A stretch of DNA of 26,676 nucleotides from a virus, in the IMG/VR virus record IMGVR_UViG_3300009706_000050, positions 1 to 26,676 of that record, one strand, 5' to 3'. Shown here piece after piece: positions 7,065 through 23,875 of the stretch. The position numbers and the translations under genes are program-made. Position 1 is the first letter of the stretch. Each line of letters begins with the position of its first letter. Below the pieces are notes generated by a model. That model made no database searches and had not been told where the DNA came from. It worked only from the letters and a program-made list of their open reading frames with translations.

Positions 7065-7789
7065 AATTTCACCTCTCCTGTATCAAAGTTATAATCATCA
7101 GCTCTTAAGATACGAGCCACTCGTGCCTGTACTAGTGCTTCAGTTTCTGTCAGTCCTGCTTTAATAAATGCTGCTAATACACCAGCCCACTGTGGAACCC
7201 ACGTAAGTATATCTGTAGCTCTCTTAGGTCCAACACCTGGACACCCCTTGTAGTTATCTGTAGAGTCACCCACTAGTGTCTGGTATAGGTGCATATGATC
7301 TGCAGCTTTCTCAGTGATAACCTCAGTAGTCTGCTTGTCTATGTTGTAGTACTCACATGGTATCGTTAGCATATCTTTATCAACACTGACGATAATGTTA
7401 CGAGCGTACTCACCATTGGTAGCTAGGATACCCAGGGTATCATCAGCTTCTAGCATAGGAACCTGAACATATTCAAAGGTGCTCTTTAAGTAGTCCACTA
7501 GAGAATGGTATCCCATAGGTTTCTGTGAGGCTTTTCTTGTAGCCTTGTAGCTCTCTAAAATATTGTGTCTAAAATATTTTCCACCTTTAGGAGAGAAACA
7601 TATGACCACCTCACTCACACCCAACTGTTCCTGCCAGTAGTTTACGGTAGACAAAGCTTGTGACCTTGCTTCCTTTAAGTTAGTAGCTGTGGTAACTATG
7701 TCATCATCCCATTGTACCTGCGTCTGGCACGCCCAACAAGTTCTGTATGTAAGTATGTCTCCGTCTATTAATAGCCGTGAAGTCTTCAT
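7043..7789 (-). CDS. 5'-3' exonuclease (T7 gp6-like, FEN/PIN family)
   Basis: This 248-residue protein degrades double-stranded DNA 5' to 3', removing RNA primers and breaking down host DNA for nucleotide recycling. The metal-binding acidic motifs are LLIDGDILTYR at residues 6-16, MLEADDTLGILA near residue 115, and VSVDKDMLT near 135. A helix-3-turn-helix segment reads VGDSTDNYKGCPGVGPKRA near residue 175. The ATG at 7789 has AGGAGA eight bases before it. The upstream HNH frame runs 86 bases into this gene. It sits after DNA polymerase as in T7 (gene 5 then gene 6), and neighbours RNR and DUF3310. Confidence 0.92.
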   Translation of the reverse strand: MKTSRLLIDGDILTYRTCWACQTQVQWDDDIVTTATNLKEARSQALSTVNYWQEQLGVSEVVICFSPKGGKYFRHNILESYKATRKASQKPMGYHSLVDYLKSTFEYVQVPMLEADDTLGILATNGEYARNIIVSVDKDMLTIPCEYYNIDKQTTEVITEKAADHMHLYQTLVGDSTDNYKGCPGVGPKRATDILTWVPQWAGVLAAFIKAGLTETEALVQARVARILRADDYNFDTGEVKLWEPSKN

Positions 7790-8138
7790 CTAAATCTCCT
7801 AAGTTAGCGTGTCGTTTATAGTGACAGACGTTGCATAAATAAGCACAGGTTAACAACTCCTCTACAGCCTTTACGTACTTACCCTTTGCAACTATCCTCG
7901 ATACTGAATCTGTTTTGATTTCAGGATCTAGATGGTGGCAATCTAGAATCTTTGTTGGATTAGATTCACCACAATCCTGGCAGCTGTATTCAAAGAGCCA
8001 AGCTATGAATCCTGACACTACCTTACGTCTGTACTTATCATACTCCTTACTTTTCTTATAAGGACAATTGGTCATACACATGGAAATACTATTGGACCAT
8101 AGTTTAGCCAGCTCCTCTATGGAATCAATGTGTCTGGC
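7704..8138 (-). CDS. HNH endonuclease wedged between DNA polymerase and exonuclease
   Basis: About 144 residues carry a complete HNH nuclease core: a first zinc pair CQDCGESNP, the catalytic histidine in LDCHHLDPEIK, and the second zinc pair with the closing histidine in LCNVCHYKRH. The frame is open back to 8276, but those codons lie inside the polymerase gene. I prefer ATG 8138, close to where HNH homology usually begins (KKSKEYDKYRRKV), although its ribosome site is weak. The end overlaps the exonuclease by 86 bases in another frame. Such free-standing HNH enzymes between replication genes are often homing endonucleases that cut relatives lacking the insertion. Homing here is inference; the nuclease fold is clear. 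Confidence 0.8.
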   Translation of the reverse strand, partial: ARHIDSIEELAKLWSNSISMCMTNCPYKKSKEYDKYRRKVVSGFIAWLFEYSCQDCGESNPTKILDCHHLDPEIKTDSVSRIVAKGKYVKAVEELLTCAYLCNVCHYKRHANLGDLDEDFTAINRRRHTYIQNLLGVPDAGTMG

Positions 8139-9930
8139 TCCAATTCTCTCCAATGTGGCTAGTTGCGGAAAGTGGGCAGTCAAACTCAAAGTAGGCTCCA
8201 GCTCGTGAAACAGATTCAGCTGCATGTTGTGCGATGACTTCTGCATATTTATAGTATACCTCAATCTGAAACTCATCGTGAATATTAGCTACAAATTCAT
8301 AGTCTACTCCCTGTTTCATACCTTCCACCTGAAGTTTCTGATCCAATAAGATCAAAGCCTTCTTCATTAGGACTGCACCTGCACTCTGTAACAGTGTATT
8401 CAAAGCAGAGTGCTCGCTTCTAATGTGGAGTTTCCGTCCGTCCAAACCAACGAGATGCCCACGCCTTCTGAATACCTGCTTAACTCTGTTGGTAAGCTCC
8501 ATAAGACCATCGACTCCAGCCAGAAAACTAGCTCTGGAATCTCTACCCTTCTTCGCTCCTCCACCAAGAATTGTACCAAGTTTAGCGTCTCCTGCTCCGT
8601 AAATGAATGCGTAGAAAAAAGTCTTAGCAACATCTCTTGAGTCGATTCCAAGTGCTCGCATATTGATAGTATGTATGTCAGTTCCAGCTTCTTTAGTCCC
8701 ACTGACTGCTGCTTCTGCATAGGTTCCTCCATCAAATCGTTTAAGGTATCCTGCTAAAGCCCTGAGTTCAAGGCCATCAGCATCACAACCAACAAGAAGC
8801 CTGTCTTTACCCCCTCTAAACAAAGACCTACACTCAGTACCGTACGGACTGTATGAGGCAGGGACTTGAGCGACATTAGGGCGGCTATGAGTACAACGCC
8901 CAGTGACTGCACCGTTAGTATTAACCCCACCATAGATACGTCCATTCCGTTCCAGTTTAAGCCAAGCATTATCACCCTCCGCTAGTTGTGAGATACGTTT
9001 ACTTATTAAGAAGTGCTCCTTTAATTCTTTGCAGTTAGGTAGATTTAATTTACTAAGTACTGATTCATCTATCTTAGGTTTGCCATTAGGAGTAAAGTCT
9101 TTAGGACTCCAGCCCTGCTGCTTAAGCTTAAGAGAGATGTGATCTCTACTGTTAGGATTGAACTCTATCTTCTTGATACGTGTAAGTTTATCACCAGCAG
9201 TATAACCTCTAGCCTTGTTACTCTTCTTAGGAGTAAGCTCTCCATCAGAAACATACCAACTACCATAAGCTTTCCTAAGTCCTTTGCCTAATGTCTCTTG
9301 GCGTTGAAGTAGACTAACATATAGTTCCTGGCCTTTCTTAATGTCAAAGCTAAACCCATACTCAACTTGACGTTGTATTATTTTAGCAAACTCATGCTCT
9401 AACTGGATAGCTTCATCACTGTATGGCAGTTCCTCAAAGTGTTCCTTAAGTATAGTAGTAACATTGACATCCTGCACACAGTACTCACCCATTTCAAAAG
9501 TAAACTCAGACCAAACATCCTCACCTGCTAGCTCTATCTTCTCCACTCCTAGTCGTAATCCCCAAGCTTTGAGACTGTGACTACCCCAGAGTTTAGGTGC
9601 TAGGAATTTCTCCTTGGCATCCACTTCTCTAAGACTAGTGTGGCAAAGGCGTGACATAACCAGGGTGTCTATGATCTCTGTACTCTTACTTGGTGTCCAC
9701 CCTAGTACCTTCTTAAGAACTGGAAGGTCATACCCTATGAGGTTATGTCCTGTTAAAGACTTAGCTGTAGACATGATCTCTAGAGCATCTTCAAGACAAT
9801 CATAAGGCTCATAGTTAGCAAAGACCTGACCAGCTAAGGCTCCTACTACTGTCATCCCTATGCAGTGTACCTTTGTGACATCAGGTAGCAGTCCATCTGT
9901 TTCTATATCAACTACTAGATCAAGATTCAT
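8125..9930 (-). CDS. Family A DNA polymerase with 3'-5' exonuclease (T7 gp5-like)
   Basis: This 601-residue replicative polymerase has an N-terminal proofreading domain with the metal residues in VVDIETDGLL, GHNLIGYDLP and YCVQDVN. The polymerase motifs are A in GCDADGLELRALAGY, B in RDVAKTFFYAFIYGAG and C in IHDEFQIEV. In motif B, the position equal to E. coli Pol I residue 762 is Tyr, as in T7, a state associated with virulent phages. Between GSWY and FNPNSRDHI only about 40 residues separate the thumb elements, while T7 has roughly twice as many, so the thioredoxin-binding loop looks reduced. The start overlaps the previous stop as ATGA. Confidence 0.95.
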   Translation of the reverse strand: MNLDLVVDIETDGLLPDVTKVHCIGMTVVGALAGQVFANYEPYDCLEDALEIMSTAKSLTGHNLIGYDLPVLKKVLGWTPSKSTEIIDTLVMSRLCHTSLREVDAKEKFLAPKLWGSHSLKAWGLRLGVEKIELAGEDVWSEFTFEMGEYCVQDVNVTTILKEHFEELPYSDEAIQLEHEFAKIIQRQVEYGFSFDIKKGQELYVSLLQRQETLGKGLRKAYGSWYVSDGELTPKKSNKARGYTAGDKLTRIKKIEFNPNSRDHISLKLKQQGWSPKDFTPNGKPKIDESVLSKLNLPNCKELKEHFLISKRISQLAEGDNAWLKLERNGRIYGGVNTNGAVTGRCTHSRPNVAQVPASYSPYGTECRSLFRGGKDRLLVGCDADGLELRALAGYLKRFDGGTYAEAAVSGTKEAGTDIHTINMRALGIDSRDVAKTFFYAFIYGAGDAKLGTILGGGAKKGRDSRASFLAGVDGLMELTNRVKQVFRRRGHLVGLDGRKLHIRSEHSALNTLLQSAGAVLMKKALILLDQKLQVEGMKQGVDYEFVANIHDEFQIEVYYKYAEVIAQHAAESVSRAGAYFEFDCPLSATSHIGENWSQTH

Positions 9931-12994: not shown

Positions 12995-15391
12995 TTAACT
13001 AAAAAAGAATTCACTGTCCAAGACTTCTTTAATATCCAACTCACCAAACTGTGGTAACTCTGGTAATTTAATATCCCTCTGTTCCTTTTTAAAGTTTAGT
13101 AATATGTCTCCTGTATATAGTTCACAGAAAGTTTCTCTTAGGACCATCCCTAGCTGCTCTATGTCACACGCATGAGTCCCAAAGCTATCGTGAACTACAG
13201 AGAAGTCTTCTATCCCATACTCATCCTTAGCTTTAACTATAGTCATCATTAGGTGACAAGCATCTAAGCTATGAACAAAGTTAGGAGCAATACCATTCAC
13301 CTGTCTGGACTTATCCATACGCTGGTCATCATGTAGAACTCCAGCATAGAGAGAAGCCATACGTCCATTTATAACTGTCTTAATTTGCTTTACCACTGAC
13401 TTGATATACTTCTGTTTAACTATGAAGCCTGTAGGAAGTGTCCAGTAGATGGGCCTGTCTGCCTTACTCATTGCCCTGGACACATCCTGTAGCCACTTCA
13501 TGCCTACCCTAGAAGATATAACAACTTCGCCAATAGCTTCATAAATATGAGAAGCAAGGTACTTGCAATGAGGCCATAGATCACTAGTAGCGTCAATGCC
13601 TTGAAATTGTACTCCTTTGTCCAACTGTTTTTTAAGTTCCTGATGTATTTGCTCACGCATTCCATAAAGTGTAGCTCCATAAGGTGTTGTCATTACTGGA
13701 CGTTTTACCAGCCCTCTGTTGAGGACTTTATGCCAAAATAAAAACTCACTATCAGTATCACGACTAATGCGAGTAACAGTATGTTCTCTAACGATCTCAT
13801 AGATATCCTGTGGTTGATCATATGGTATTAAGTTAGTAGCACATCCACCTACTTCATCCTTGAGCATAGCTGAGAAGTGCTGCAGTCCATTACAAGAACC
13901 GTCTACCGTGATAGGCAGATGGCTGATGTAATCAACATTCCCGTTACAGCAAGTGAACTCCATGCAAGCCCTAAGGAACTGCCAGGGTTTATCAGCGTCC
14001 ATCCACATACGGCTAGTAAGAGGATCAATGCCACACAACATAATGTCGTCCGAATGTTCATCTGTCCACTCTACCCTTTCTTCGAGGGAGATCTTATCTT
14101 CCCCGAAACAGTTTGCAATGTGTACCTTGAGCCATGCGTATCCTGAAGCTCCAAGAGGTTTTCCTCTAGAGAACTCAAGTAGTCCTCTTGCTGAATCTTC
14201 TCCTTGGGGGTTGAGGAAAGCTGTGTTTGCATAAAGTCTACCTCTGAAATCGAGCGTATGCGGAAAGTATATAGCTTTTTCATCTTTAAACTTCCTAGCC
14301 ATCCACATCAATTGACTGAATTGGATGCGCTTTGTTTTCCTACGTTGGTTATCAGAATACATGAGTGTTGCCTCACGTTTCCACTCTATTATTTCTTCTT
14401 TAGTTCCGTGCTTTGGATACGGACGTTCCATGTGCCGTTCTCCAAATTCTGGTATAACGCCACAACTTGCCTGTGAGTCAAAGAGTCTATCCATGACTTC
14501 AAAGACTTTCGGAGAGACTCTCCATCCAGTTTCTTGGACTGTGTTAACTGCATGAAATACCTCCTTTAAATTAGAACTATCTAGCTGTTGCATATAGGTG
14601 TCATCATTAGATTTCACCAGGTTCATGTTGGTGTACTGGTAGTAGCCACCAGTGTACACTGAGGTCCACTTGCGAGGACTAATGATACATGGTAACTTCA
14701 CAGGACTCAATAGTTCACACACTGAGTTCTTACCGTCTATCCATTTCAGGGAAGCTTCTGTAGCTTCCAGCCAGTATACCTGCTTGTACTTACCTTGAAC
14801 ATCTTTAGTCTGCTTACGTATCTCAAAGATACCTGTAGCATCACACACTAGTTCCACTAGTAGCTGCCCTAGTCTCACCTTGTTACCTGGTAGCCAGTTT
14901 TCCCATACCACATCAGCTTTAATACTGGAGTGAGCTAGTACTCTCTTTTGTTTTCTGTAGTTGGTGGTTCTCTTTGCTAGATCCCTAGAGACCACAGCAA
15001 ATAGAGCAGGGTTAGTCTCTCTAAAGTTCCTAAACCTAGCTTCATCTTCAATAAACCCACCCACCTCTAGGGCTACCTTAACTAGTTTCACTGGTGTACT
15101 CAGGTGATTGATACATCCCTTAAGAGCAAGGAAAGATATCACATCTGAGGGCAACTCAGCCAGTCTCTTGACTGCATCTACATTGTACTTGATAGGCTTA
15201 CCACTGACCATCTCTTTATGCAGGGTATCAATAGCATTAGATACCTTAGAGCATGACTTCCTAATGAACTGGATACCTGCTGGTGTGGTAGCTTCATGCT
15301 TCCCCTTCTTAGCTTCTGAGTTCTCCTTTCGGTATCTCTTGACACCTAGGGATACCATCTCTGCTTCTAGTAACTTTTGTCTGTTGAGCAT
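12995..15391 (-). CDS. Phage single-subunit DNA-directed RNA polymerase (T7 gp1-like)
   Basis: This 798-residue protein (T7 883) is the defining protein of the group. The catalytic aspartates are in TVDGSCNGLQHFSAML and SVVHDSFGTHACD; the lysine and tyrosine of the O-helix region are in RPVMTTPYGATLYGM. The C-terminus is SEFFFS, comparable to the aromatic end (FAFA) needed for T7 activity. A GGAGGGAGAG site precedes ATG 15391. It transcribes the replication and virion genes once made by host polymerase. The promoter it recognises cannot be read directly from the protein. Candidate CTATAG-core sites are discussed separately. Confidence 0.96.
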   Translation of the reverse strand: MLNRQKLLEAEMVSLGVKRYRKENSEAKKGKHEATTPAGIQFIRKSCSKVSNAIDTLHKEMVSGKPIKYNVDAVKRLAELPSDVISFLALKGCINHLSTPVKLVKVALEVGGFIEDEARFRNFRETNPALFAVVSRDLAKRTTNYRKQKRVLAHSSIKADVVWENWLPGNKVRLGQLLVELVCDATGIFEIRKQTKDVQGKYKQVYWLEATEASLKWIDGKNSVCELLSPVKLPCIISPRKWTSVYTGGYYQYTNMNLVKSNDDTYMQQLDSSNLKEVFHAVNTVQETGWRVSPKVFEVMDRLFDSQASCGVIPEFGERHMERPYPKHGTKEEIIEWKREATLMYSDNQRRKTKRIQFSQLMWMARKFKDEKAIYFPHTLDFRGRLYANTAFLNPQGEDSARGLLEFSRGKPLGASGYAWLKVHIANCFGEDKISLEERVEWTDEHSDDIMLCGIDPLTSRMWMDADKPWQFLRACMEFTCCNGNVDYISHLPITVDGSCNGLQHFSAMLKDEVGGCATNLIPYDQPQDIYEIVREHTVTRISRDTDSEFLFWHKVLNRGLVKRPVMTTPYGATLYGMREQIHQELKKQLDKGVQFQGIDATSDLWPHCKYLASHIYEAIGEVVISSRVGMKWLQDVSRAMSKADRPIYWTLPTGFIVKQKYIKSVVKQIKTVINGRMASLYAGVLHDDQRMDKSRQVNGIAPNFVHSLDACHLMMTIVKAKDEYGIEDFSVVHDSFGTHACDIEQLGMVLRETFCELYTGDILLNFKKEQRDIKLPELPQFGELDIKEVLDSEFFFS

Positions 15392-17222: not shown

Positions 17223-17250
17223 AGTATAACATTCTTAGCTAGAATGTCAA
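17223..17250 (-). promoter_or_regulatory. Sigma-70-like promoter before the stem-loop leader
   Basis: On the minus strand, TTGACA (17245-17250) and TATACT (17223-17228) are 16 bases apart, with an extended -10 TG. The -35 overlaps the stop codon of the upstream gene. The spacer shares GCT, one variable base and AGAATG with the promoter at 12964-12991. It should drive the stem-loop leader and the genes down to thyX and RNAP. Confidence 0.8.
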
Positions 17251-17540
17251 GCTTTTTCTATCATTGTCTCCAGGGTAACTAAAGATAACTTAGTTAACTG
17301 TGGCATCTTAGTCTTTCTAAGGGTATTGGTAAGTGAGTTATACCGATACCCTGATAATACTACACCTGAGATATAATTACTGAAACCATCTGGTTTAGTT
17401 ACTCTGACAGGGTATGGATGATCTGCCACTTCAGATAACCTGATATCTTCTCTCTCCATAGGAGTGAGTTGACTAGGGTAGTAGTCATCTGATGTATCTG
17501 TCATGGTGTTTCTAGCTAGATCTGTCACTAAGTCTTTCAT
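17247..17540 (-). CDS. Unknown early protein
   Basis: This 97-residue protein starts MKDLVTDLARNTMTDTSDD and contains SNYISGVVLSGYRYNSLTN and a C-terminal KLSLVTLETMIEKA. I chose ATG 17540, with AAGGAG ten bases upstream. The frame stays open to a GTG at 17630, but that extension runs through the palindrome cluster and has a badly spaced ribosome site. The centre resembles a small beta domain. No family is recognised. Confidence 0.65.
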   Translation of the reverse strand: MKDLVTDLARNTMTDTSDDYYPSQLTPMEREDIRLSEVADHPYPVRVTKPDGFSNYISGVVLSGYRYNSLTNTLRKTKMPQLTKLSLVTLETMIEKA

Positions 17541-17600
17541 AATAGTAGTCTCCTTAGGTTTATTAATGGTAGAGTTAGTGTTACCATTGGTAATACTTTG

Positions 17601-17631
17601 AGTGTTACTTAAGTGTACACTAGGTAACACT
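17601..17631. repeat. 31-base near-palindrome
   Basis: Outer arms AGTGTTAC (17601-17608) and GTAACACT (17624-17631) are perfect complements. Inside them AGTGTACACT (17612-17621) is itself a perfect palindrome. Only the short segments between are unpaired. Both centres fall at position 616-617 of that kilobase, so the whole unit can fold as one hairpin or bind a dimeric protein. Confidence 0.8.
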
Positions 17632-17660
17632 TCCTTACTTACTTCCTTACTTACTTCTTA
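17630..17660. repeat. 12-bp tandem repeat
   Basis: CTTCCTTACTTA occurs at 17630-17641 and again at 17642-17653, followed by a shortened copy CTTCTTA to 17660. The unit itself contains CTTA repeats. On the transcribed sense this gives repeated AAGGAAG stretches that resemble ribosome binding sites without a following start codon. Confidence 0.75.
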
Positions 17661-17662
17661 GA

Positions 17663-17691
17663 TCTATAGTTCTTCTATAGTACTTCTATAG
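17663..17691 (-). repeat. Three TCTATAG boxes with 11-bp period
   Basis: TCTATAG occurs at 17663-17669, 17674-17680 and 17685-17691, exactly 11 bases apart. On the minus strand the last reads CACTATAGAAG, which resembles the core of T7-type promoters (CACTATAG). They could be phage RNAP promoter cores or stacked operator boxes; the data do not decide. Confidence 0.6.
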
Positions 17692-17735
17692 TGTTACCTT
17701 ATATACTTCTATATAGGGATTTTTCCCTACATCAA

Positions 17736-20358: not shown

Positions 20359-20393
20359 TGTGTGCTCCTTTGTTGTTAATTAATGTTAAGGAT

Positions 20394-20422
20394 AATATAG
20401 GCCACATCCCAGAACTTGTCAA
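20394..20422 (-). promoter_or_regulatory. Leading early sigma-70 promoter
   Basis: On the minus strand, a perfect TTGACA (20417-20422) and TATATT (20394-20399) are separated by 17 bases. Directly upstream is a run of A/T (about 20424-20455) that would act as an UP element for the alpha subunits of host RNA polymerase. This is the best promoter in the window and the natural start of early transcription. Confidence 0.88.
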
Positions 20423-20453
20423 GTATAAAATGAATAAATAAAAAAATAAATAT

Positions 20454-20497
20454 ATGGTGTGCTTATGGTGTGGTCATGGTGTGGTCATGGTGTGACC
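20454..20497 (+). repeat. Four tandem 11-bp repeats (ATGGTGTG units)
   Basis: Units start at 20454, 20465, 20476 and 20487. Each begins ATGGTGTG, followed by CTT, GTC, GTC and ACC. The period is exactly 11 bases. The last unit also forms TGGTCA / TGACCA with its neighbour. The array ends about 32 bases upstream of the -35 box of the leading early promoter, on the far side of the A/T-rich tract. Confidence 0.85.
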
Positions 20498-20551
20498 ATA
20501 GAAGGAATAAAAAAACAAATACCCCATCACACAATGAGACACACATGGTAA

Positions 20552-20598
20552 CCACCCTAGCCCACCGTATGACCACCATTGCCCACCATGAGACCACC
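20552..20598 (-). repeat. Five CCACC boxes at 10/11/10/11-base spacing
   Basis: CCACC starts at 20552, 20562, 20573, 20583 and 20594, which is a 10.5-base period, one turn of B-DNA. On the minus strand each box reads GGTGG and is mostly followed by T or G, then C. The units resemble those of the array at 20454-20497 but point the opposite way, so the two arrays form a large inverted arrangement about a centre near 20525. Confidence 0.8.
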
Positions 20599-20722
20599 TA
20601 AAGTTGCCTCGCGTGATTAATAATGGACCTTTTCAAGTGTTTTTTTGGTGGCCCTATGGGGTAAAATCGGCTTTCTACTATCACATATACCCTCTCACAT
20701 TATTCCACTAAAATATTCCCTA

Positions 20723-20794
20723 ACCCCCACCATGATAACACTTATTCCCCTTAGTAGGTTAAGTGGGGGTATTTAATATTCCCTTAGTACCCCC
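20723..20794. repeat. Competing G5/C5 inverted repeats
   Basis: ACCCCCAC (20723-20730) is complementary to GTGGGGGT (20763-20770). The same G-run can instead pair through GGGGGTA (20765-20771) with TACCCCC (20788-20794). Two alternative hairpins are therefore possible around one G-run, a switch-like layout. CCCTAGG also occurs twice just beyond (about 20792-20798 and 20804-20810). Confidence 0.6.
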
Positions 20795-20834
20795 TAGGAA
20801 CCACCCTAGGAGACACCTTGGATTTACTCGTATT

Positions 20835-20870
20835 GGTCCTAAGGTAGCGAATCTCTGCACCAATGGCGTA
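20835..20870 (+). other. Trimmed 23S rRNA-like segment (domain IV core)
   Basis: Plus strand 20835-20851 reads GGTCCTAAGGTAGCGAA, identical over 17 bases to the universally conserved 23S rRNA sequence of domain IV that is also the core of the I-CeuI site. After five bases, GCACCAATGGCGTA (20857-20870) matches 23S GCACGAATGGCGTA at 13 of 14 positions, in the correct order. In 23S these blocks are separated by about 26 bases forming a hairpin; here that hairpin is replaced by TCTCT. The segment is antisense to all phage genes. The comparison is from memory of the E. coli sequence. Confidence 0.75.
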
Positions 20871-20962
20871 TCTTACTTCTACTACTATCGTTGATATAAG
20901 GCCACATTAGTTTCCCCCATAGTCCTCTATAGGTTATCCATAACATGGCCTCAGATCGTCTC

Positions 20963-21061
20963 TCAGTACTTCATAGAGCGTTTAGGCTTAGGCTTCACCA
21001 TCTTCTTCTTAGTCTTCTTAGGAGCTGGTGTAGGGTTCTTGTAGCCTTTTAGTTTAGGCAT
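20963..21061 (-). CDS. Lysine-rich 32-residue peptide
   Basis: ATG 21061 is preceded by AAAGGAAATA, and the frame ends TGA at 20963. The product starts MPKLKGYKNPTPAPKKTKKK and ends with KPKPKRSMKY. Thirteen of 32 residues are Lys or Arg, interspersed with Pro. It is the last gene before the non-coding region. Such a peptide would bind nucleic acid or membranes electrostatically. No family is recognised; the good ribosome site supports it. Confidence 0.65.
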   Translation of the reverse strand: MPKLKGYKNPTPAPKKTKKKMVKPKPKRSMKY

Positions 21062-21984: not shown

Positions 21985-23640
21985 TTATCTTACCTGATTC
22001 CAAACCATTGGTTCAGGATCTTGTCCTTTCGTCTGTGCCATAAAGTTATTAATGCCATCTAAGAACTCCTCTTGTTGTCTATCTACATAGGCTTGATCTT
22101 CATCAGCAGCCATTTGTTCCCACCAATACTTGACACCCATAGCCAGTACATCTATTCTATCATCATACTGTAGGCTACCACGGTCTCTTGTAAGTCGAGT
22201 CATCTGATAAAACAGTTGTCTCCTTGGTTCTTCCTTGGAACCTTCATAGTCTCTATCTACTTCAGATCTATCGAAGATGAGTCTATGTTGGTTCATTACA
22301 GGCTCTAATGAGTCTATAATCCTAGCTTCCTTCTGGGTACTATGCTTTACTTCTTCTACATTACAACGGTGGTAATTGAATAATACTGGTTTAAAGATCT
22401 CAGTATACATACCATCACCAAAGTTAGCTTCTATCTCTACGGTATTTACTTTGTGTTTCTGAGCTATCTTAGCTAGTTTCATGAGTGTGGACTTGTCATA
22501 GCCACCTTTGAGACCACCTATTTCTAATACAAAGATCTTACCATTGAGTATCTTAGTTACACAGTAACCAGTTTCATCCTGACCTCTACCTGATGGATCT
22601 ATGTGCATAGCAGACCCTGTGTATGTAAAGTAATCCTGTGATACATTCATAGCCCTATAGAAGTAGTCTCCAGTGAGACCCACAGCAGGTAGATCTAGTA
22701 GATCATCCTTACCATATAGGACTTGTCCTGGTCCACTCTCAGTACTCAAGGGTATTACTATGAGATCAGCTAATTTAAGTGGGTATCTCTGGTCATCTTC
22801 ACCAGAAGTATCCAACATAAACTGCAGGGAGAACCCTGAGTTACCATATGAAGCCCTACGTTCTTCTAAGTCTAAACTATCAAACCTCAGTGGATCTGTA
22901 GGAGCACCCACAGGCAGCTCCAGTTGGTCTATAAAGGGAGCTAATCTATGTGCGTAGAACTCCTTAAGCTTTGCATTAGGCATCAATGCAGGCCAAATGC
23001 GGCACTTGTAGCCCCTATCCTGTAGGTTAGAGTAGAGACTTTCCTCTACTTGGGGTGTCCCAAGGTAGACTATACGTCCAACCTTAGGCATAACTACCGC
23101 ATCAAACTCTTTTACTACCTCTCCTAGCTTGTCTCGCATGACCTGAGTAAGGGCATTAGAGAGTACTTCAACGTCATCCGCTATTATAGTGTGTGCCCTA
23201 CTACCGACAATCTGCCCAGTAATACCAACAGACTTGACAGAAGGAGCATGGGCAGCACGAGACGGAGCAACGTCAAAGGCCACATTGGAGTTACGCTGAT
23301 CCTCTCGTGCTCGTAAGTGTTGGAGGATTGGCATTTCGTGGATAATTCTTTTGGTGAATGTACTAAAGTCATCGGACCTCTGTTTGGATGCTGAGATTAC
23401 TAAAAATTTATCTTGTGGATCTACTAGTAGCTTCCATACGACATATGCAGAGGTAATCCAACTCTTACCCACACCTCGGAAGGCTTGGATAATTAGTCTC
23501 TTAGGACCATGTTGGAGGTACTCTGCTATGTCATATTGGATTGGAGTGGGAGGAGGGAGAGCAAGGTGCTTCCAAGCTATATATAGGAAGTTCCTAAAGT
23601 CCCTCTTAATTGGGTCTTGCTGGTTCCCTTGGTGTTTCAT
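21985..23640 (-). CDS. Terminase large subunit (T7 gp19-like)
   Basis: This 551-residue packaging motor and nuclease has an N-terminal ATPase with Walker A AFRGVGKSWITSAY near residue 57 and Walker B HTIIADDVEVLS near 150. The C-terminal RNase H-like nuclease carries metal residues in MHIDPSGRGQDETG, NTVEIEANFGDGMY and YDDRIDVLAMG. It cuts concatemers and pumps DNA into the prohead through the portal. I chose ATG 23640; a TTG one codon upstream also keeps the frame. It overlaps the small subunit by 35 bases, as in T7-like phages with adjacent terminase genes. Confidence 0.95.
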   Translation of the reverse strand: MKHQGNQQDPIKRDFRNFLYIAWKHLALPPPTPIQYDIAEYLQHGPKRLIIQAFRGVGKSWITSAYVVWKLLVDPQDKFLVISASKQRSDDFSTFTKRIIHEMPILQHLRAREDQRNSNVAFDVAPSRAAHAPSVKSVGITGQIVGSRAHTIIADDVEVLSNALTQVMRDKLGEVVKEFDAVVMPKVGRIVYLGTPQVEESLYSNLQDRGYKCRIWPALMPNAKLKEFYAHRLAPFIDQLELPVGAPTDPLRFDSLDLEERRASYGNSGFSLQFMLDTSGEDDQRYPLKLADLIVIPLSTESGPGQVLYGKDDLLDLPAVGLTGDYFYRAMNVSQDYFTYTGSAMHIDPSGRGQDETGYCVTKILNGKIFVLEIGGLKGGYDKSTLMKLAKIAQKHKVNTVEIEANFGDGMYTEIFKPVLFNYHRCNVEEVKHSTQKEARIIDSLEPVMNQHRLIFDRSEVDRDYEGSKEEPRRQLFYQMTRLTRDRGSLQYDDRIDVLAMGVKYWWEQMAADEDQAYVDRQQEEFLDGINNFMAQTKGQDPEPMVWNQVR

Positions 23641-23875
23641 CAAAAGGTAAATCCTCTGTTATTGCAGTTATATCTTCATTAGCAGCACCCATACACTCAA
23701 TGTTGTTGTCTCGTAAGAATTGACGAGCCACGTTAAGTACGGATGCTGGAGCAGATATTGTTTCAAGCTTTCCATCTTTATTCTCCACTTTGGTTCCATT
23801 CTTGATCTGATCAGCAAGAGCTTTCGCTATGATGCCATGCAGCTTACCGAGTTCATTAACGGTTGCATTACTCAT
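23606..23875 (-). CDS. Terminase small subunit (T7 gp18-like)
   Basis: This 89-residue protein is exactly the T7 gp18 length. It is an acidic protein starting MSNATVNELGKLHGIIAKAL and ending DLPFDETPREPARPN, directly upstream of and overlapping the large subunit. The helical N-terminal half (LADQIKNGTKVENKDG, then ASVLNVARQFLRDNNIEC) fits small terminase subunits that bind DNA and regulate cutting. The start overlaps the lipoprotein stop as ATGA, with GAGG upstream. Confidence 0.88.
   Translation of the reverse strand: MSNATVNELGKLHGIIAKALADQIKNGTKVENKDGKLETISAPASVLNVARQFLRDNNIECMGAANEDITAITEDLPFDETPREPARPN

Follow-up and report, generated by a model that had tools for sequence, protein, structure and literature searches.

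Genes and phased arrays between the late and early regions

The window, i.e., the complete stretch of DNA that was analyzed, is a virus record of 26,676 bp from a T7-type phage related to Pelagibacter phages. Most of its genes are located on the - strand, which is called phage sense in the following. A gap from 20359 to 21060 separates the end of the late genes from the first early gene. T7-type large terminase (TerL), small terminase (TerS) and RNA polymerase are all encoded in this one genome, together with a gp2.5-like protein and ThyX on the - strand. An HNH endonuclease ORF (7704-8276, - strand), which overlaps the start of a downstream 5'-nuclease-like ORF and the end of a DNA-polymerase-like ORF, looks like a homing insertion. 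The genes and the features of the gap are as follows:

12995-15391, - strand: T7-like single-subunit RNA polymerase (phrog_414, E=4.2e-241)
20394-20422, - strand: predicted leading early promoter, sigma-70-like TTGACA-17-TATATT with an A/T-rich stretch before it (promoter scan)
20454-20494, + strand: array 1, four ATGGTGTG(GTC) units at 11 bp, opposed to array 2
20552-20598, - strand: array 2, five GGTGG (GTGGTC/GTGGGC) boxes at 10-11 bp
20782-20822, - strand: third, weaker phased set of GGTG-like boxes, AAGGTGTCTCCTAGGGTGGTTCCTAGGGGGTACTAAGG (score 25)
21985-23643, - strand: TerL, T7 type (phrog_38, E=4.9e-115)
23606-23875, - strand: TerS, 89 aa (Pfam DNA_Packaging_2, E=2.7e-13; phrog_891 terminase small subunit, E=5.6e-16)

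Compared with cultured phages, the DNA of the whole window showed no megablast-level similarity. The only matches were weak ones to Pelagibacter phages, with at most 75% identity over part of the early gene region, and Pelagibacter phages are also the cultured relatives at the locus of the arrays. A search against Rfam gave no match at the gathering score.

The initial annotation had described two opposed arrays beside an early promoter, and this description holds. The four ATGGTGTG units start at 20454, 20465, 20476 and 20487 on the + strand, at exactly 11 bases, and the last 8-mer ends at 20494. The five GGTGG boxes of the opposite strand appear on the + strand as five CCACC copies within 20552-20598, with spacings of 10/11/10/11 from left to right. 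The extra related boxes were found at 20647, 20726 and 20801, and the promoter was recovered as a TTGACA-17-TATATT site reading from 20422 to 20394 (- strand). A distance of 31 bp separates the end of array 1 from the -35 box of this promoter-like site. On the + strand array 1 presents GTGGTC every 11 bp, and on the - strand array 2 presents GTGGTC alternating with GTGGGC. The two arrays therefore share a core and represent one box in two opposed orientations.

For an unbiased view, the whole window was scanned for four 7-nt boxes at steps of 10-12 bp. Arrays 1 and 2 ranked first and second, with scores of 28/28 and 26/28. In Markov simulations of the 700-bp region (n=300) the top score was 24, and in simulations of the entire 26.7 kb (n=60) a score of at least 26 was reached once and 28 never. 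A second zone of short phased or tandem repeats (GTGTTACTTAA, TATAGAAGTAC, ACTTCCTTACTT) is located at 17579-17720, where it overlaps the upstream end of the ORF at 17247-17630 and passes beyond it.

Prediction of a terminal repeat around array 2

The gap contains several landmarks that are known from the ends of T7-type genomes:

20509-20520, - strand: ATTTGTTTTTTT, similar to the class II pause/termination signal ATCTGTT of T7 RNA polymerase, at the right edge of the predicted repeat and between the arrays
20521-20687, - strand: predicted direct terminal repeat (TR), 167 bp, from homology to the repeats of T7 (160 bp) and HTVC019P (162 bp) and their flanks
20607-20625, - strand: CATTATTAATCACGCGAGG block, kept in close relatives
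20652-20666, - strand: TTTTACCCCATAGGG block, about 22-36 nt into the predicted repeat, aligning with GTTCCCCCATAGGGGG of the T7 repeat and AGTTTCCCCCATA of HTVC019P
20688-20704, - strand: left-cut block AATAATGTGAGAGGGTA/ (slash, edge of the repeat), directly before the predicted repeat; consensus AAAAATcTGAGnGGGTA/T in 31 relatives, AAAAATCTGAGTGACTA/TCTCACAG in T7

Direct terminal repeats are present in the records of both T7 and HTVC019P. The 160-bp repeat of T7 is preceded by AAAAATCTGAGTGACTA/ and carries TTCCCCCATA at a depth matching that of the block in the window. In the HTVC019P record, the 162-bp repeat starts with ..ATTATGAGGGGGTA/TCGTATTACACTGG..TTTCCCCCATA and ends with ..GAGAGAGGGTCT/GTTTTTTTGC, and both places match the repeat predicted here. 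The corresponding edges in the window are AATAATGTGAGAGGGTA/TATGTG..TTTTACCCCATAGGG on the left and ..GATGGGGT/ATTTGTTTTTTT on the right. Since these landmarks match those of T7 and HTVC019P, the 167-bp repeat was placed at 20521-20687, with its left end in phage sense at 20687 and its right end at 20521.

Further relatives are in line with this placement. In 31 dereplicated relatives, the left-cut block follows downstream of TerL and aligns as AAAAATcTGAGnGGGTA/T (also written as AAAAATCTGAG-N-GGGTA/T), and it is the clear best match in most relatives tested. In the window it is accompanied by the CCCC block about 28 nt into the predicted repeat, as at a T7-type junction. At the other edge (20509-20520) stands ATTTGTT, one mismatch away from ATCTGTT, followed by a T-run. 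ATCTGTT or ATCTGTA starts at the right end of the repeat, or within 1-2 bases of it, in T7, T3, K11, SP6, MmP1, K1F and Syn5. T7 RNA polymerase has ATCTGTT as its class II termination signal, which is known also from the concatemer junction (PMC11617373). According to the ORF map and the promoter scan, the predicted junction is flanked by the last late gene on one side and by the leading early promoter on the other. The related 36-kb contigs G001 and G002 were tried for closure to show the repeat, and their ends do not overlap. On the basis of homology, the terminal repeat is very probably located at this place in the window; the exact genome ends of the virus we infer from the same landmarks. 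Some relatives have much longer predicted repeats of about 310-560 bp (L065 from 3206, L049 from 2615, L014 from 5807), with many more boxes or a perfect tandem expansion of the 11-bp unit.

From this placement it follows that array 2 is located inside the predicted repeat and array 1 just outside of it, in the SRL position, and that the third phased set, before the repeat, takes the SRR position. The repeats described for the SRL and SRR of T7 are CCTAAAG at about 12-13 bp. In the sequence read here, many CCTAAAG copies flanking the repeat were not found; a single copy occurs inside the predicted repeat (20597-20603), and other boxes fill the SRL and SRR positions. The initial annotation had proposed that the two arrays could be the equivalent of the T7 short repeats for end processing or packaging. 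This idea is largely correct, as the left-cut block, the CCCC block and the ATCTGTT-like signal put a predicted terminal repeat at this place. However, the two arrays do not form one T7-like element, since array 2 is inside the predicted repeat, only the ATGGTGTG array is in the SRL position and neither has the CCTAAAG consensus.

In comparison with T7 and other Studiervirinae, the window has the same order of parts, the left-cut block, the CCCC block, a repeat of 160-170 bp, the ATCTGTT-like signal at the right edge, phased boxes in the repeat (11-12 bp), and T7-type TerL and TerS. It differs in its outer array of CACACCAT at 11 bp and in the T-run after the signal, which is absent in T7. The Pelagibacter phage HTVC019P and its relatives (Pelagivirus) share the position of the TR and its landmarks, and C-rich repeats follow the repeat of HTVC019P. 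However, its TerL is only ~55% identical, its inner array is not significant on its own, and it has a longer outer array rich in CCAC. The R sites of lambda cosB and SPP1 pac also comprise several short sites in a row close to the cut, to which TerS presumably binds. These have unrelated sequences and cutting rules, and their sites flank the cos or pac cut, whereas those of the window are inside the duplicated TR.

Conservation of the phase in related phages

The relatives were taken from viral contigs by TerL. The closest of them have the same architecture with other box letters. In the 108 nt before the T-run, autocorrelation over 31 relatives, which are not fully independent in statistical terms, gave z=14.4 at lag 11, z=8.1 at lag 22 and z=5.4 at lag 33. 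A control stretch upstream was without a comparable peak. For the 26 relatives outside the close clade of the window, lag 11 reached z=13.3. With 13 clade representatives, picked to reduce the dependence, it was z=8.4, while simulations did not exceed 2.3. Identity of the arrays among these 13 representatives was on average 0.62, compared to 0.58 after shuffling. The repeats of the cultured phages T7, T3, gh-1, K11, MmP1, K1F and SP6 (n=7) also show autocorrelation peaks, at lags 10-13 and 22-24. Taken alone, the array of T7 (TTGGGTTTGTCTTTGGGTGTTACCTTGAGTGTCTC) has P=0.007, whereas the phase of single relatives is often not significant.

An EM analysis found one shared degenerate box with a log-likelihood of 440, compared to 213-247 for simulations. 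It is roughly GT-N3-C and appears GTGGTC-like in the group of the window and GTTAAC-like in others. As a finder of repeats in whole genomes this universal box model was rejected as too weak: it wins narrowly in the window and does not locate the repeat in the whole T7 genome. On the phage-sense strand, G exceeds C in the inner array of 31 of 32 relatives, so the orientation of the inner array is fixed. The inner array, with its position relative to the conserved landmarks of the repeat, thus keeps phase, orientation and position while its letters have drifted apart to an identity close to random.

Among the relatives, the outer array is not a general feature. In close relatives it has 2-4 units (2-3 in L003, L034 and L007) or is absent. 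Pooled over the SRL region of the relatives, the signal at lag 11 is weak (z=3.7), in contrast to 14.4 inside the repeat. Phased short repeats directly after the repeat are thus present in the window as array 1 and weak among relatives generally. When the SRL region of relatives was tested for the box in inverted form, the result was unspecific, as the SRR region scored too and the box is close to a palindrome. C-richness after the T-run is no general feature either (16 of 32). The initial annotation had named related phages lacking the phased boxes as the finding that would speak against it; in this comparison the inner array survived and the outer one only in part.

Alternative functions of the arrays

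It was also considered in the initial annotation that the arrays could be an operator or a replication origin. Both appear less likely, since the array adjacent to the promoter is not conserved among relatives and the array inside the TR is. For an operator or enhancer, a phage or host regulator would bind cooperatively and control the leading early promoter. The 11-bp phasing is typical of cooperative regulators, and array 1 has a good promoter-like site nearby, with the -35 box at a distance of 31 bp. However, it is this promoter-adjacent array that is poorly conserved, as seen from the pooled SRL signal. The conserved array is located 130 bp further upstream, past the termination-like T-run, and is found at the matching place in T7-group phages with different early promoters. 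Regulation of the early promoter is therefore an unlikely function.

The inner array might instead be part of the pause or termination signal, with phased G-rich boxes on the non-template strand slowing the phage RNA polymerase ahead of the class II site. It is always located directly upstream of the ATCTGTT-like site with its T-run, the excess of G over C in 31/32 relatives concerns the non-template strand, and the sequence upstream of ATCTGTT was described as somewhat important (PMC11617373). Nevertheless, there is no evident need of a polymerase for an exact 11-bp phase over 4-6 turns, and the boxes of many relatives are not G-rich (GTTAAC, GTGTTAC), so we regard this function as improbable. 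The formation of a G-quadruplex was rejected as a general explanation because GTTAAC or GTGTTAC boxes occur in relatives.

Iterons of a replication origin would, like the arrays, be short direct-repeat boxes adjoining A/T-rich DNA. This is very unlikely here, as the array is inside the TR and hence at both genome ends, and T7-type phages start replication from RNA-polymerase promoters, not from iterons. Neutral tandem expansion in noncoding DNA, to which the perfect tandem units (array 1; GGGCTGTGCTA in L014) and their varying copy number would point, is highly improbable and for the inner array already disfavoured, because phase, orientation and position are kept despite near-random identity of the letters.

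Possible recognition by the packaging machinery

In the terminases of tailed phages, DNA is recognized by the TerS subunit, which usually assembles into rings (PMC7672466, PMC9611059). How it recognizes DNA is unclear and controversial according to reviews (PMC9611059, PMC7672466), and a solved structure for the TerS family of the window was not found. With TerL corrected for, box similarity among the relatives correlates with TerS (partial Mantel r=0.20, P=0.013; r=0.26, P=0.006 for an ungapped TerS version). In the reverse test, with TerL corrected for TerS, P was 0.22. The left 45 nt of the repeat track TerS just as well as the boxes do, and the covariation of the boxes with TerS is modest.

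TerS occurs in two natural forms, which differ by a 13-aa segment. L008 and L009 combine a window-like TerL (90-91%) with a short TerS of another group, which indicates that TerS was exchanged independently of TerL. In L008, whose TerL is 91% identical to that of the window, the swapped short-form TerS goes together with GTGTTAC boxes. In the comparison of long and short forms, the base before the C of the box is A in 8/54 and 43/64 boxes. The TerS form as a switch of the box type is suggestive and was rejected, as L062 has a long TerS and GTTATC/GTATAC boxes.

Taken together, the locus is likely where this marine phage of the T7 type has its concatemer junction, with phased boxes that serve as recognition sites for the packaging machinery, most probably for TerS. 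For the inner array itself a role in packaging is quite likely. Whether TerS reads the boxes directly appears evenly balanced; protein binding to the arrays, the identity of TerS as the binder and the order of cutting we infer from the arrangement of the parts. Read in phage sense, the replicated head-to-tail DNA would contain, in this order, late genes, left-cut block, TR of ~167 bp, class-II-like pause signal, array 1 and early promoter, and the DNA would be cut into single genomes at this junction. With roughly one copy per turn of the helix, array 2 would offer a short box, GTGGKC in the window and approximately GT-N3-C across the family. The packaging machinery, most probably a TerS oligomer, might dock along one face of this row, with its subunits on successive boxes. 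Docked in this way, it could mark the junction, assist in halting or removing the phage RNA polymerase at the signal that follows, and direct TerL to its cuts at the two edges of the repeat. A second dock, specific to the lineage, would be array 1, which has the box reversed, lies beyond the right-hand edge and corresponds in place to the SRL of T7.

Tentatively, it can be asked if terminal repeats of the T7 family carry a family-wide packaging code, in which a ring of TerS would read a row of GT-N3-C boxes at one turn, with spacing and orientation conserved and letters drifting along with TerS. Such a code is possible, if somewhat doubtful. In the open-access literature, no previous report of phased boxes within terminal repeats of the T7 family was found. 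The row of boxes, with its kept phase and changing letters across T7-group phages, offers specific DNA for binding assays, footprinting and mutation of the spacing. In addition, AAAAATcTGAGnGGGTA/T ... T-run offers a simple means to place genome ends in contigs of uncultured phages.

A match to 23S rRNA near the predicted junction

The gap also contains GGTCCTAAGGTAGCGAA at 20835-20851 (+ strand), an exact 17-nt match to positions 1921-1937 of E. coli 23S rRNA. The phage-sense strand is antisense to the rRNA at this place. The 14-nt core of the match, TTCGCTACCTTAGG, is absent from six more distant relatives and present in six close ones (L002, L003, L004, L006, L007 and L034). The 17-mer may have been acquired as a fragment, may act as a decoy or antisense element, or may match by chance, for which we estimate a probability of about 1% for one window.
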